In this document: piece after piece, positions 30,805-41,482 of the stretch
Layout: each line of letters begins with the position of its first letter
Position numbering within the stretch: position 1 is the first letter of the stretch
Source: Zetaproteobacteria bacterium
Lineage (GTDB): Bacteria; Pseudomonadota; Zetaproteobacteria; Mariprofundales; Mariprofundaceae
Direction of reading: 5' to 3'
Assembly: GCA_003228735.1 (NCBI GenBank)
Contig: QIFG01000050.1
Span: forward strand, 1-44,838
Length of the DNA: 44,838 nucleotides
The notes under the pieces: model-generated
Database searches by the model: none
Seen by the model: only the letters and a program-made list of their open reading frames with translations
What the model was told of the DNA's origin: nothing
Position numbers and translations under genes: made by a program

Positions 30805-30823
30805 TGCCTTGTGGTTTCTTCTC

Positions 30824-31669
30824 ATGGCTGAAACAAAACCGCTCCGAATCCTGTCCCTCGGTGCTGGCGTGCAGTCCACCACCGTCCTTCTCATGTCGTG
30901 CAAAGGTGAGTTGCCAAAACTGGATTGTGCGATATTCGCAGATGTGGGATGGGAGCCGAAGGCGGTCTATGAGCATCTTAACTGGCTCAAGGGCGAGTCA
31001 GCGCGGCATGGTATTCCAACGCATATTGTTCGCGCCGGACACATTAAAAGGGACGCGCTAAACAGTCGGGTGCGTGGCGTAAACGAGGCAGGCGCACGCT
31101 GCGCTTCCATGCCTTACCGTACACGCAATCATGATGGAACTATCGGAATGCTTCGCCGTCAATGCACGGTGGAATACAAACTTAGTCCGATTGAGCGCTT
31201 TGTACGTCGAGAGTTGTTAGGGCTTAGGCCGAGACAGCATGCACCAGAGTCAATAGTTGTGGAGAAGTGGATCGGGATATCAACCGACGAAGCCCACAGA
31301 ATGAAGCCGAGTCGAAACGCATATGAAGTAAACCGATGGCCATTGATTTATGACAAGGATATGGATCGGCACGGATGCCATGTCTGGCTGAAAGCCAATT
31401 ACCCAACACGCGAAGTGCCCAGGTCATCGTGTATCGGCTGTCCGTATCACTCAGATCACGAATGGAGAGCGCTGCGCGATAACTCGCCAGCAGAGTTTCA
31501 AGAAGCAATCGAGTTTGATAAAGCCATCAGGAATTGTGGCGGACTGCGCGGCAAGGTGTTTGTGCACCGGAAAGCAATCCCGCTGAGCGATGTGGACTTG
31601 GAAACACTTGAGGACAAAGGGCAGATCAATATGTTCGGTAATGAATGCGAAGGATTGTGTGGTGTTTGA
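30824..31669 (+). CDS. PAPS-reductase-like PP-loop protein
   Basis: The protein has 281 residues from ATG 30824. A PP-loop SLGAGVQST (11-19) binds ATP or a nucleotide, as in PAPS reductases, FAD synthetase-like proteins and DndC. A C-terminal SSCIGCPYHSDHEWRAL holds a CxxC pair and a conserved His, typical of phage members. These proteins may be linked to sulphur transfer or nucleic acid modification; the exact role in phages is unclear. It follows the iteron array, has no strong ribosome site, and its end overlaps the start of the next (broken) gene by 8 bases. Partner Dnd genes are not present. Confidence 0.75.
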   Translation: MAETKPLRILSLGAGVQSTTVLLMSCKGELPKLDCAIFADVGWEPKAVYEHLNWLKGESARHGIPTHIVRAGHIKRDALNSRVRGVNEAGARCASMPYRTRNHDGTIGMLRRQCTVEYKLSPIERFVRRELLGLRPRQHAPESIVVEKWIGISTDEAHRMKPSRNAYEVNRWPLIYDKDMDRHGCHVWLKANYPTREVPRSSCIGCPYHSDHEWRALRDNSPAEFQEAIEFDKAIRNCGGLRGKVFVHRKAIPLSDVDLETLEDKGQINMFGNECEGLCGV

Positions 31670-36624: not shown

Positions 36625-36921
36625 ATGGCTGATTTCGTAAGCGATCTTATCGCCCGCATTCAAGGCCAGTTGCCGGAGATGGATGAGGAAAAGGCCCTGC
36701 GCATCGAGAGTGATCTCCGCAATCTGTGGGGCGGCGATCGTCCATACATCGGCAAAACGAAATTTGATCGCGAACACATGCGGAAGCGGGACATGCGGAT
36801 ATTCCATGACTATCAGCGAAACGAGCGCCCGGCGCTGCTGTCCCGCCGCTTCCGGCTGAGCATCCGCCGTATCAGCCAAATTATAAGCGAGCAGAAAAAA
36901 ATAGAGAAAAACAGAGCATAA
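36625..36921 (+). CDS. Mor-like transcriptional regulator
   Basis: The 98-residue protein starts 3 bases after the terminase stop. The pattern LRNLWGGDRPYIGK...REHMRKRDMRIFHDYQRNERPALLSRRFRLSIRRISQIISEQKK matches Mor/C activators of Mu-like phages: a WGG beta region followed by a helix-turn-helix. Such proteins switch on middle or late genes. It is an odd position for a regulator, between terminase and a cassette with its own promoter. It might act on the repeat elements at 38437 and 41510 or on the promoter at 36944. Confidence 0.6.
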   Translation: MADFVSDLIARIQGQLPEMDEEKALRIESDLRNLWGGDRPYIGKTKFDREHMRKRDMRIFHDYQRNERPALLSRRFRLSIRRISQIISEQKKIEKNRA

Positions 36922-36943
36922 GTCTCAGGCACAGAGGAAAAGC

Positions 36944-36971
36944 TTGACATTAGGCACAGCATGCCCATAAT
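36944..36971 (+). promoter_or_regulatory. sigma-70 promoter of the inserted cassette
   Basis: TTGACA at 36944-36949 and CATAAT at 36966-36971, with a 16-bp spacer. An imperfect inverted repeat CCTAT-n9-ATAGG (36975-36993) directly follows and could be an operator. The next gene starts at 37028 with GGGAG 7-8 bases before its ATG. Strong constitutive boxes inside a late operon are a mark of an independently expressed cassette. Confidence 0.75.
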
Positions 36972-37027
36972 ACACCTATGCCCGCCAGATAGGCGAGGCG
37001 AAAAAACCACCGAAAGGGAGAGAAAGA

Positions 37028-37423
37028 ATGGAAAACGATCTTATTATCAATTCAGAATCAGTACTGACAGGCATGGTCAATTGTGGCGTAGATATTTATA
37101 CAACAATTAAAGACTTTGATTTATCAGTGTATGTTCTGACAAACAACAAAGCGACTATTAAAAACACGTTTATCGTTTGCGATGACGATTCAACATCGTT
37201 CAGCTTCAAAACGTCAGCACACGCATGGGATCGCATCTCAAGTTACAGTGATAAAAACTTGATGCATGTGTCAATAGATCATGAAATTGTGATCGTAACA
37301 AAAGAAGAAGCGGCTCTTTTCGATCTCGAAGAAATCGACTTGTTTGTTCGCAACGGGGATCTCTATATCTCCAAATTTGATATCGACAACTATGAGCTGC
37401 ACGGATATAAAGTTGCTAAATAA
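37028..37423 (+). CDS. acidic 131-aa protein, unknown (candidate anti-defence protein)
   Basis: The translation (MENDLIINSESVLTGMVNCG...) has 23 acidic and 11 basic residues, a net charge near -12, with mixed beta-rich hydrophobic segments and no signal peptide. Codon use is more AT-rich than in the neighbours. It is the first gene after a sigma-70 promoter and has a good GGGAG ribosome site. The next gene is AcrVA2-like and the third is a small HTH protein, which is the layout of anti-CRISPR cassettes. The protein may therefore block a host defence, possibly as a DNA mimic; that is inference from position and charge. I do not recognise a family. Confidence 0.7.
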   Translation: MENDLIINSESVLTGMVNCGVDIYTTIKDFDLSVYVLTNNKATIKNTFIVCDDDSTSFSFKTSAHAWDRISSYSDKNLMHVSIDHEIVIVTKEEAALFDLEEIDLFVRNGDLYISKFDIDNYELHGYKVAK

Positions 37424-37435
37424 TAAGTCAGATAT

Positions 37436-37472
37436 CCGCCCGCTCATGCATCTGCGTGCAGCGGGCGGGCTT
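37436..37472 (+). terminator. terminator-like hairpin after the acidic gene
   Basis: A 9-bp perfect stem CCGCCCGCT / AGCGGGCGG (37436-37444, 37460-37468) with a 15-base loop, followed by GCTTTA. The T-run is short, and the hairpin covers the start of the next gene, so it may attenuate rather than stop transcription. Confidence 0.4.
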
Positions 37473-38159
37473 TACCCGGACGCATGGAAAACTACGGATG
37501 ATTTCCGAGCCTCGCGCGGTGTTGATCTGCCGGACTGGCCGGACTGGTGCTTTACGCCGCTGGCCACCGCGTATGCGATAGTCAGCGGTGGAGGCGATAA
37601 TCGAGTCAGCCTGGACACTGCCGGGGATGTCGGACGCCTGGCTGCGTTGTCGGCATGGCGAGGCACGCTGGGCGATGCATTAAAATCCATGCTGTCCGAG
37701 GCGCGCAGGCAATCAAAAATTGCAGGCGCAAACCTGCCGGCCATGCCCGGGTTGGCCGCCGGCATGGCCGATGCCGTGCAACCGTTATTGTCTCTGATTG
37801 TCTATCTGTGCGCAGCCAATGCAGATATTATTGATCCAGCCGATGCCGCCCGCAATCCGCATAATCCGATCCCGAAAAAAACGCGCAGGCACGGCTCACG
37901 GATTTTTCCGGCAAAAAAACCGACAGTATGGCAAACCGGGTTTCGCCTGGGCGCGGCAATCCGTCGAGCCACGGATATAGCAGCCTCCGAAGGCGCGGCA
38001 AAACGTCCACACATCCGCCGGGCGCACTGGCATCATTTCTGGCAGGGGCCAAAGTCTCAGCCGGAGAATAGGAAACTGATCGTGAAATGGTTGCCACCCA
38101 TTCCCGTGGGATTTGAAGACATCGATGAATTGATCCCGACAATTCGGAGTGTGCAATGA
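37446..38159 (+). CDS. AcrVA2-like anti-CRISPR protein homologue
   Basis: The protein has 237 residues from ATG 37446; an in-frame ATG at 37389 would overlap the previous gene. Matches to AcrVA2 (Moraxella) as I remember it are LPDWC (33-36 region, LPDWPDWCF here), a middle LLSLIVYLCAANADI, the VWQTGFRLGAAIRR segment, and the strongest, KRPHIRRAHWHHFWQG (186-201) followed by KLIVKWLPPIPV. AcrVA2 of about 320 residues blocks Cas12a production by triggering loss of cas12a mRNA; relatives on plasmids and phages are shorter and mostly untested. No CRISPR genes are in the window, so the target here is unknown. It overlaps the next HTH gene by 4 bases. Confidence 0.75.
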   Translation: MHLRAAGGLYPDAWKTTDDFRASRGVDLPDWPDWCFTPLATAYAIVSGGGDNRVSLDTAGDVGRLAALSAWRGTLGDALKSMLSEARRQSKIAGANLPAMPGLAAGMADAVQPLLSLIVYLCAANADIIDPADAARNPHNPIPKKTRRHGSRIFPAKKPTVWQTGFRLGAAIRRATDIAASEGAAKRPHIRRAHWHHFWQGPKSQPENRKLIVKWLPPIPVGFEDIDELIPTIRSVQ

Positions 38160-38368
38160 TTCTCGACGCCAGCAGGCACAATCCCGATCCGGTCTACCTG
38201 CGTGAGTTGGTTGCCCGGGCTGGGATGTCACAACGGGCCTGCGCCAGGCAGATCGGCATCAGTGAGCGCGCGATGCGCAAGTATCTCGCGCTGCCGGCCC
38301 CGGAGACGCCTGCTCCATACCCAGTCCAGTTTGCGCTGGAAGCGCTGGCGGAGAAAAACCAGAGCTGA
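38156..38368 (+). CDS. small HTH protein (Aca-like)
   Basis: The 70-residue protein has a helix-turn-helix SQRACARQIGISERAMRKYLA at about 26-46. It starts in an ATGA overlap with the AcrVA2-like gene, the usual place of an anti-CRISPR-associated (Aca) repressor. Such proteins bind an inverted repeat in the cassette promoter; the CCTAT-n9-ATAGG repeat at 36975-36993 is a candidate. Sequence is too short to assign it to a numbered Aca family. Other small Cro/XRE-type regulators would look similar. Confidence 0.7.
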   Translation: MILDASRHNPDPVYLRELVARAGMSQRACARQIGISERAMRKYLALPAPETPAPYPVQFALEALAEKNQS

Positions 38369-38436
38369 CCCTCTGTGGTGAAAAGCCCCATCGGATTTTC
38401 CAATTAACGGCGCGGGGTTTGACCGTTCAAGCATAA

Positions 38437-38473
38437 GTGAAATCATTGCCTTAACCATTTCCATTTTCGTGCG
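38437..38473 (+). repeat. 37-bp direct repeat, copy 1
   Basis: Begins GTGAAATCATTGCCTTAACC and ends TTTTCGTGCG; identical to 41510-41546 except one base. It lies just upstream of the head-joining-like gene and just after the inserted cassette. Confidence 0.85.
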
Positions 38474-38475
38474 CC

Positions 38476-39078
38476 ATGATTCGGCGCATGTCGCTTTCCA
38501 ATCAGTTCGACAGTGCGAATTATCCGGAAAACGAACCGGAAAGCCTTGTCGCCGGGGACCGCTGGGCGTGGAAGCGCTCCGATCTCCATTCCGTCTACGC
38601 CAACACCCTCTATGATCTGAAATACTCCTGCCGCCGCGAGGCATCCACGGCAGACGAAATCGAAATTACAGCCGCCGCGTCCGGCTCCGACTATCTCATT
38701 GAGGTTCCGGCTGCGACGACAGTGCCATACACGCCTGGCATTTATCTCTGGCAGGCATACATCATCCGCAAGTCCGACACCGAGCGGGTCACGCTTGAGT
38801 CAGGCCGGTTCGAGGTGCTGCCAGACCGCGATCTTGCGACCACCGATCCGCGCGGCCATGCGCGCAAGACGCTCGATGCCATCGAGGCCTATCTGGAGGA
38901 CTCGAACAATTTGAAGGCCGCGAACTACAGCATCGCCGGCCGCTCGCTGCAGCGGATCGGTATCCCCGATCTGCTGGTGCTGCGCGACAAATACCGCAGC
39001 GAGGTGGTGGCCGAAGAGACTGCCGAACGGATTCGGCAGGGCCTTTCGACCAAAAACAAGGTACGGGTGCGATTGTAA
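38476..39078 (+). CDS. phage head protein, possible head-tail joining (gpW-position)
   Basis: The protein has 200 residues from ATG 38476; ATG 38488 gives MSLSNQFDS. Neither start has a clear ribosome site. The N-terminal 120 residues look like a beta-rich domain (VYANTLYDLKYSCRREAS...GIYLWQAYIIRKSDTERVTLESGRFEVLPD). The C-terminal part (RGHARKTLDAIEAYLEDSN...GRSLQRIGIPDLLVLRDKYRSEV) resembles the short helical proteins that sit before lambda-type portal genes. The stop TAA overlaps the portal ATG (TAATG). Function is inferred mainly from gene order. Confidence 0.55.
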   Translation: MIRRMSLSNQFDSANYPENEPESLVAGDRWAWKRSDLHSVYANTLYDLKYSCRREASTADEIEITAAASGSDYLIEVPAATTVPYTPGIYLWQAYIIRKSDTERVTLESGRFEVLPDRDLATTDPRGHARKTLDAIEAYLEDSNNLKAANYSIAGRSLQRIGIPDLLVLRDKYRSEVVAEETAERIRQGLSTKNKVRVRL

Positions 39079-40730
39079 TGGCCGCCGCTGAAGGTCAGGC
39101 CGTGCCGGAGATCACCGTTGGCAAGGAGAGCCCCGGTCGAACCCATGGTTCACGAATTCTGACCGAGTGGAAGCGAGAGCGCGTCGCCCGTCAACTTGCG
39201 CCGATCAGGCAGACACGCAAATTCGAGGCTGCTGCCATCAACCGGCTGACGTCATCCTGGCTGACATCTACAGCCAGCATCGACCGCGAGCTGCGCGGCG
39301 ATCTCGACAAGCTCCGCGCTCGATCACGGGATATGTGCCGCAACAATGAATATGCGAAGAAGTTCCTGCGCATGGTTCGCACCAATGTGGTCGGCCCGCA
39401 CGGCTTCACCCTGCAACTACAGGTTCTGAATTCGGACGGCTCAGCGGACAAGCTGGCCAATGACGCCATCGAAGCCGCCTTTAAAAAGTGGGGGCGCAAG
39501 GGTATCTGCGAGGTATCCGGCCAGTATTCATTCGCCGACGTTCAGCGTGTTCTGATTGGCGCCGCCGCCCGCGATGGTGAATTCCTGGTACGCAAGGTTC
39601 GCGGCGAGGCTGCCGGCAACGTCTTCGGGTTTGCGCTTCAGATTCTCGATATCGACCGGTTGGATACCCGGCTAAATATCGCTCCGGCCGGCAATCGCAA
39701 TGCCGTGGTGATGGGTGTGGAAATGGATGCCTACCGCCGCCCTGTGGCATACTGGATATTCAAAAGCCATCCGAACGGCTTCCACGGCTCGGCCCGTGAG
39801 CGCGAGCGCGTTCCGGCCTCGGACATCATCCATGCTTTCCTGCCGGACGAACTGGAGCAGCCGCGCGGCATTCCCTGGATGCATGCCGCCATGCGGCGGC
39901 TGCACGATCTCGGCGGCTACCGCGAAGCAGCTATCATCGCCGCTCGTATCGGCGCTGCCCAGATGGGCGTGATCACGTCGCCCGAAGGTACGGCAGACGC
40001 GATTAAAGATGGCGAGGATGCAGAGGGCGTTCCGGAGATCGAGGCCGAGCCGGGCACCTTCCCGGTGTTGCCCGAAGGCTATGATATGACGCCTTTCAAT
40101 CCGACCTATCCGCATCAACAATACGAGATGTTCAACAAGGCCTGCCTGCGCGGCATCGGCTCCGGCTTTGGCGTTTCTTATCATGGCCTGGCCAACGATC
40201 TGGAGGGCGTGAGCTTTTCGTCCATTCGCTCCGGCGTGCTCGAGGAGCGCGACGAGTGGATGGTGCTGCAAAACTGGTTCGACTCCTCACTGATGGCTCC
40301 GGTTACCGACGCAATGCTGGAGATGTCGATCCTCTCCGGCGCCGTGATTCAAGCCGGCGGCTCCGCCCTTCCTGTTGCTAAGCTGGACAAGTTCTTGGTC
40401 TACAGCTGGCAGGGTCGCCGCTGGCCCTGGGTTGACCCGAAAAAAGATATGGAAGCCAGCCTGCTGGCAATCAACAACGGGCTATCCAGCCCGCAGCGCG
40501 TTGCCGCCGCGATGGGCATGGATATTGAGGATGTGCTGAACGAACTGAAAAAATTCCAGGAAATGCTGGAAACGAAGGGTGTCGTGCTCGGGACTGATAC
40601 ATCGCCGCCTAACGAGGACGTCAAAACAATCAACGAAAAACGCGCCGAACTTGGCCTGGACGACATTGATGGCGGTGATGCGATATTCATGCCCAGTTCC
40701 GAGATTCCTGCGCTTGAGAAAACACCGTAA
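39078..40730 (+). CDS. phage portal protein, lambda gpB family
   Basis: The 550-residue protein is the normal size for this family. Typical features are LDKLRARSRDMCRNNEYAKKFLRMVRTNVVGPHGFTLQLQ near 75-120, GAAARDGEFLVRKVRGEA, LQILDIDRLDTRLN, and LPDELEQPRGIPWMHAAMRRLHDLGGYREAAIIAARIGAAQMGVI. The portal ring forms the DNA entry channel and docks the terminase. It starts at a TAATG with the previous gene and ends at TAATG with the next one, so the three are translated together. It matches the lambda-type terminase upstream. Confidence 0.92.
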   Translation: MAAAEGQAVPEITVGKESPGRTHGSRILTEWKRERVARQLAPIRQTRKFEAAAINRLTSSWLTSTASIDRELRGDLDKLRARSRDMCRNNEYAKKFLRMVRTNVVGPHGFTLQLQVLNSDGSADKLANDAIEAAFKKWGRKGICEVSGQYSFADVQRVLIGAAARDGEFLVRKVRGEAAGNVFGFALQILDIDRLDTRLNIAPAGNRNAVVMGVEMDAYRRPVAYWIFKSHPNGFHGSARERERVPASDIIHAFLPDELEQPRGIPWMHAAMRRLHDLGGYREAAIIAARIGAAQMGVITSPEGTADAIKDGEDAEGVPEIEAEPGTFPVLPEGYDMTPFNPTYPHQQYEMFNKACLRGIGSGFGVSYHGLANDLEGVSFSSIRSGVLEERDEWMVLQNWFDSSLMAPVTDAMLEMSILSGAVIQAGGSALPVAKLDKFLVYSWQGRRWPWVDPKKDMEASLLAINNGLSSPQRVAAAMGMDIEDVLNELKKFQEMLETKGVVLGTDTSPPNEDVKTINEKRAELGLDDIDGGDAIFMPSSEIPALEKTP

Positions 40731-41482
40731 TGGCATTCGGGGATTTGGGTATTGCCAAAAAGATCGTCATGAATGCCCCGAAATATCGAAAAATTGTCGA
40801 ACCGTTCGCCGACGGCGGCACGCTGGCAATGTATGCAGCCAAGAAAAAGCCGAAAGAGCATATCGTGAACATTGAGGATGAGATGCTGTTCAACCTGTAT
40901 CTGTTCCTCCAGCAGATCTCTGCTGCCGACAAAAATAATCTCAAGGCCCGCGACTGGATATCCAGTCCCGAGACGTTCGACCAGGCGCTGGCCATCAATG
41001 CGGCGGATGGCCCCGATCTCTATTATCGTTTTTTCTATCTCAAGGCGTTCGGTGTCAAATCGAAAGAGCCGACCATCGATCCGACTTATGACTGGCTAAG
41101 CCTTGGCAATGATCACAAATCGATTTTGTACACACTGCCTGTTTTGCGCATCAAACTGAAGGGGGTTTCTATTTCCAACGATGATCCTCTGGCGGTGATG
41201 GCCTCCGCATCCGGCGCGGATACGTTCCTCGTTTTGACGCCGAAATCGCAGGAGCAGATTGATGCGGTTGAATCGCGCCTGTCTGGCGTCTCGGCCAAAT
41301 TTTTCTTTGCAAAAAAGAGCAAGAGCAATGACGACATCTTTGCGGCGGTCGATCAGTTTGGAAGCAGCATGAACATCAGCGCCTTCTCGGCCTCAACAAT
41401 CATGATGGCAACCACCGAAGCGCGCACGAATTACGAGAGCAGGATGGTTCCACTTGAGCCTGTTGTGGCCACGATCGCCTGA
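40730..41482 (+). CDS. D12-class adenine-methylase-like protein lacking the DPPY motif
   Basis: The protein has 250 residues. The start resembles Dam/D12 methyltransferases: KYRKIVEPFADGGTLAMYAAKKKPKEHIVNIEDEMLFNLYLFLQQ (18-62) corresponds to motif I (usually F-x-G-G-G) and the following acidic loop. Where catalytic DPPY should stand, the protein has TFLVLTPKSQEQID (about 163-176), so it is probably not a working methyltransferase. The motif I glycines are partly kept, so it could still bind SAM or DNA. It lies between portal and protease-capsid genes, and is joined by TAATG to the portal, so a structural or packaging role is possible. Confidence 0.6.
   Translation: MAFGDLGIAKKIVMNAPKYRKIVEPFADGGTLAMYAAKKKPKEHIVNIEDEMLFNLYLFLQQISAADKNNLKARDWISSPETFDQALAINAADGPDLYYRFFYLKAFGVKSKEPTIDPTYDWLSLGNDHKSILYTLPVLRIKLKGVSISNDDPLAVMASASGADTFLVLTPKSQEQIDAVESRLSGVSAKFFFAKKSKSNDDIFAAVDQFGSSMNISAFSASTIMMATTEARTNYESRMVPLEPVVATIA

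Follow-up and report, generated by a model that had tools for sequence, protein, structure and literature searches.

A probable acr-aca1-type moron with a shortened AcrVA2-family protein in a prophage of the Zetaproteobacteria

The 44,838-nucleotide stretch of DNA analysed here (the window) contains a Zetaproteobacterial prophage whose packaging and head region carries, as judged by comparison with related phages, an inserted unit, or moron. It encodes an orphan acidic protein (ORF1), an AcrVA2-family protein with an internal deletion (ORF2) and a homologue (ORF3) of the Pseudomonas-phage anti-CRISPR repressor Aca1. We consider it probable that this is an acr-aca1-type moron subject to Aca1 autorepression, in which ORF2 is most likely no silencer of cas12a mRNA of the known type and ORF1 is the likelier active product. 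The insertion, the operon structure, the identity of the Aca1 homologue and the operator are read directly from the sequence, and autorepression by ORF3 would follow by analogy with the Pseudomonas phages.

Results

Site of insertion and content of the cassette

The window corresponds to contig 5 of a draft 1.88-Mb genome, whose host belongs to the family Mariprofundaceae of the Zetaproteobacteria. Bacterial genes, including those for NeuB, DegT and radical SAM enzymes, extend to ~26.7 kb; the remainder of the contig, starting at ~27 kb, holds phage genes (primase, terminase, portal, capsid). The cassette (36944-38368) is flanked by a Mor-like gene (36625-36921) and a head-tail joining (HTJ) gene (38476-39078). 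The order TerL-Mor-HTJ-portal is uninterrupted in the related phages L144, L121 and L122, which lack the cassette and in which the Mor-HTJ gap is less than about 100 bp; the interval in the window is 1,554 bp. A 9-bp direct repeat lies at the two edges (a 9-mer common to both edge zones arose in 9 of 1000 shuffles), and the sequence to the right of its second copy aligns with the post-Mor region of L144. The absence of the cassette from related phages, together with these repeats, identifies it as an inserted moron. The features are:

36915-36923, no strand: left 9-bp direct repeat AGCATAAGT; covers the stop of the Mor-like gene and forms the left edge of the inserted cassette
36927-36933, + strand: additional AGGCACA half-site that precedes the -35 box and may be a second Aca1 site
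36944-36971, + strand: sigma-70-type promoter TTGACA-16-CATAAT, 11/12 to consensus
36950-36967, no strand: predicted Aca1-type operator TTAGGCACAGCATGCCCA; fills the promoter spacer directly after the -35 box, between -35 and -10
37028-37423, + strand: ORF1, orphan acidic protein, candidate anti-defence, 131 aa, net charge -12, 37% GC
37436-37468, + strand: GC-rich hairpin with a perfect 9-bp stem over the ORF2 start region, no T-run
37446-38159, + strand: ORF2, AcrVA2/FinQ-family protein without the mid beta-segment, 237 aa; the start may be TTG 37413
37662-37676, + strand: internal deletion junction AWR-GTLG-DALKSML; relatives have about 90 more residues here
38156-38368, + strand: ORF3, putative Aca1-family HTH repressor, 70 aa; 4-bp overlap with ORF2
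38430-38438, no strand: right 9-bp direct repeat AGCATAAGT; marks the right end of the insertion

An earlier note on this DNA had described a consensus sigma-70 promoter, an acidic protein with a net charge near -12, a hairpin and a small HTH gene overlapping an AcrVA2-like gene, and all of these are present. Its view of the whole as a self-contained acr-aca-type cassette is likewise borne out by the Aca1 homologue, the Aca1-type operator inside the promoter and the empty site in related phages.

Elsewhere in the prophage, positions 40730-41482, between the portal and capsid genes, encode a 250-aa protein with a weak match to D12-class methyltransferases (PADLOC type II MTase, 3e-5; Pfam match below cut-off) and no match in the related phages compared, and positions 30809-31669 hold a phage-type phosphoadenosine phosphosulfate reductase gene (phrog_424, 3e-39). 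An Rfam search of 36-39.2 kb gave no RNA family match.

Control region and the Aca1 homologue

ORF3 matches the Aca1 structure 7VJN along essentially its full length (E=7e-17, 58.5% identity, 90% coverage), and also the Aca1 structures 7C0G and 7FA3 (E about 1e-16); by these matches it is a homologue of Aca1. It further matches Aca1 of DMS3 and JBD24, whose neighbours are annotated I-E and I-F anti-CRISPRs, so that homologues of the HTH protein do stand beside acr genes. In the window, ORF3 immediately follows the putative acr gene ORF2, of the AcrVA2 family, in the same operon.

The predicted operator in the cassette promoter is an inverted repeat of the half-site TTAGGCACA, with the left half exact and the right half mismatched. 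It scores 14/17 to the Aca1 consensus and is the sole position with that score in the 44.8-kb window; when the intergenic region was shuffled 20,000 times, 5 shuffles reached that score. A published Aca1 binding probe includes TTAGGCACAATGTGCCTAA (PMC9410881), a sequence that the DMS3 acr gene likewise has upstream. Once the phage infected a cell, transcription from the near-consensus promoter would begin immediately and yield one coupled message for ORF1, ORF2 and Aca1; as Aca1 built up it would bind the operator between -35 and -10 and switch the cassette off, as for Aca1 in Pseudomonas phages.

The hairpin is more stable than expected (RNA fold z=-3.7; 0 of 200 shuffles were equally stable) and overlaps the ORF2 ATG. 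It was considered as a terminator and rejected, since it has no T-run.

Palindromes of the type TAGGNACANTGTNCCTA were also found upstream of uncharacterised small ORFs in 5 of 11 Aca1-like viral loci. Those with near-perfect operators (L013, L016, L017, L018 and L019) contain small intervening ORFs that are candidate new acr genes.

A shortened member of the AcrVA2 family

A search with ORF2, which the earlier note had proposed as a check on its AcrVA2 assignment, returned a significant match to the AcrVA2 structure 7CI1 (E=2e-12), and both ORF2 and the Moraxella-phage AcrVA2 homologue (Mcat5) match phrog_6160. Of the hallmarks that had been listed for the protein, RPHIRRAHWHHFWQG, KWLPPIPV and LCAANADI are present, but the cited LPDW is a different motif: it belongs to VDLPDWPDWCF (residue 28 on), an instance of the family's N-terminal PxWP[DN]WC[FY] (PxWPxWCF) motif; the LPDWCVYV of AcrVA2 lies in a segment that ORF2 lacks. 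Upstream of the ATG the frame encodes SDIRPLMHL, similar to the SDIPRPREHL of relatives, and translation may begin at TTG 37413.

The segment missing from ORF2 begins IYRFDP and includes LPEWCVYxETP, so that of the N-terminal, mid and C-terminal regions of AcrVA2 the mid region is absent. Across 84 aligned relatives, nearly all of which have this segment, its median length is 87 residues; in ORF2 it is down to 2 and in L055 to 1. ORF2 is sister (support 0.97) to a full-length Mariprofundus ferrooxydans protein, and the loss of the mid segment is therefore derived and in frame. Seven of the 10 residues of a docked Cas12a-peptide pocket fall in the gap, the pocket being taken from a docking model of the Shewanella phage Y11 protein (PMC10846135) and not from contacts in 7CI2. 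The reading frame of ORF2 is still open and the conserved motif at its C-terminus is still there, neither of which would be required of a dead gene. The sole second copy of the sequence is an IMG/VR contig (100% over 15.8 kb); because this copy probably derives from the same data as the window, an assembly error may lie behind the deletion. Structure prediction for ORF2, with 7 sequences, gave a pLDDT of 43 and no usable model.

A second AcrVA2-family protein without the mid segment, of 217 aa, is encoded in a Rhodoferax MAG (L055:3923-4576); it was shortened independently, and the break points of the two deletions differ.

None of the small ORFs examined downstream of AcrVA2-family genes matches the Aca1 of the window, and the pairing of Aca1 with an AcrVA2-family protein is found in no other family locus examined. 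Small genes, often with a 4-bp overlap, do follow the AcrVA2-family genes of L006, L007, L009, L049, L052, L066 and L099, and several such genes resemble HTH or ribbon-helix-helix regulators and may be further aca types.

Relationship to the plasmid protein FinQ

ORF2 also matches the plasmid protein FinQ (28% identity), encoded at L108:2992-3774 on the E. coli plasmid p2-Ec-BERN-042. A long-form profile from which ORF2, FinQ and the Moraxella-phage protein had been left out gave 167 bits for FinQ, 162 for the AcrVA2 homologue of the Moraxella phage and less than 4 for each of 100 shuffled controls; among PDB sequences FinQ directly matches AcrVA2 (7CI1, 4e-12). By these profile and direct matches the IncI-plasmid fertility inhibitor FinQ is a homologue of AcrVA2. 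The idea that FinQ is another compact form with the same deletion as ORF2 was rejected, as its alignment shows the N-terminal domain to be absent instead. According to a published report, FinQ causes transcription of F tra to terminate at several sites (PMC8744291), and AcrVA2 lowers cas12a mRNA; their homology makes a common message-silencing mechanism testable in E. coli. Among the published papers searched, preprints aside, none names FinQ together with anti-CRISPR.

The orphan ORF1

ORF1 has a pI of 4.5, a good ribosome site (GGGAGA at 37016) and a GC content well below the about 57% of the flanking phage genes; a stop-free frame of its length arose in 1 of 5000 base shuffles. The earlier note knew no family for this first gene, and we found no homologue among phages, plasmids, 85k genome contigs, 78 genomes of the class, PDB or NCBIfam; in viral contigs the sole match is the same contig. 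Weak Pfam and PHROG matches (E 0.01-0.04) were rejected as chance. The structure prediction suggested for the 131-residue protein was run on its sequence alone, but the mean pLDDT was 33 and the model was not usable. ORF1 comes first after an Aca1-type promoter, and this position singles it out, by guilt by association, as a candidate new anti-defence protein.

Discussion

AcrVA2 reads nascent Cas12a at an LSKT motif, triggers decay of the mRNA and so lowers cas12a mRNA (PMC13131331), and ORF2 might act likewise and guard the phage in related type V-A hosts. It has the family match to AcrVA2, with conserved motifs and frame kept, and a suitable host type exists: the one genome of 74 in the family with Cas12a (G040) carries, at L117 (G040:C81), a complete type V-A CRISPR-Cas system with Cas12a (1284 aa), Cas4, Cas1 and a 29-repeat array, and this Cas12a, which begins MEVDMLENFTQQYSLSKTLRFELKP, has the N-terminal LSKT motif that AcrVA2 reads (PMC13131331). 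The mid segment is nevertheless missing from ORF2; the draft genome of the host has no match to the Cas12a RuvC profile and no Cas1 match; and the spacers of the G040 V-A array match the prophage over no more than 12 bp, as expected by chance. Cas12a was found in none of the 50 genomes carrying AcrVA2-family genes, which argues, weakly because Cas12a is rare, against Cas12a as the usual target of the family. The statement in the earlier note that AcrVA2 reduces Cas12a production does not transfer to ORF2, which lacks the mid segment present in nearly all relatives, and a role for ORF2 as a working Cas12a inhibitor is doubtful, indeed distinctly improbable. The reading that we prefer is that ORF2, having lost the proposed binding site for the target peptide, would be either a remnant or a protein with an altered target. 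As it is probably not a working silencer, we infer that the promoter-proximal ORF1 is the better anti-defence candidate and the likelier active product of the cassette.

There are two further accounts. If the AcrVA2/FinQ superfamily lowers specific messages in general, ORF2 could be a variant that silences some other target and shields the prophage from a competing element or from a different defence. The FinQ homology described above favours this, as do the cuts made by FinQ in tra transcription (PMC8744291) and by AcrVA2 in cas12a mRNA (PMC13131331) and the occurrence of family members in plasmids and phages whose hosts have no Cas12a; it is weakened by the loss from ORF2 of the mid segment, which FinQ and AcrVA2 have in common beyond the C-terminal region, and we regard it as unlikely, if conceivable. 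Somewhat less likely is its broadest form, in which AcrVA2 and FinQ would represent one superfamily of message-specific silencers on phages and plasmids, ORF2 a working, re-tooled non-Cas12a member and ORF1 an acidic anti-defence protein of an entirely new kind, with Aca1 controlling the two of them outside Pseudomonas. An ordinary moron, with an Aca1-like gene that regulates functions other than defence, would accord with the orphan status of ORF1 and with reports that Aca1 homologues can stand alone or away from acr genes and control other things (PMC9410906), but an Aca1-type operator and a member of an established Acr family occur here in the same operon, and this account seems to us the most improbable of all. 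We favour an acr-aca1-type moron, which would extend Aca1-controlled operons to Zetaproteobacterial phages.

ORF2 shares with AcrVA2 (7CI1/7CI2) and the Moraxella-phage homologue the N-terminal region and the C-terminal RPHIRRxHWH region, and differs in the deletion of the mid beta-segment (about residues 88-186) and in a host whose draft genome gives no Cas12a match. FinQ falls in the same superfamily as ORF2, by the profile and by its direct match to 7CI1, but ORF2 does not have the FinQ-type architecture: FinQ has mid and C-terminal regions without the N-terminal domain, whereas ORF2 has N-terminal and C-terminal regions without the mid. The acr-aca1 loci of the Pseudomonas phages DMS3 and JBD24/JBD30 resemble the cassette as a whole, with their own promoter, the operator TTAGGCACA in its spacer, and one or more short acr genes followed by an overlapping aca1 within the head gene cluster. 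The phage in the window is, however, Zetaproteobacterial, its right operator half is imperfect, and where the Pseudomonas loci carry small I-E and I-F Acrs as cargo, it carries an orphan and an AcrVA2-family protein.
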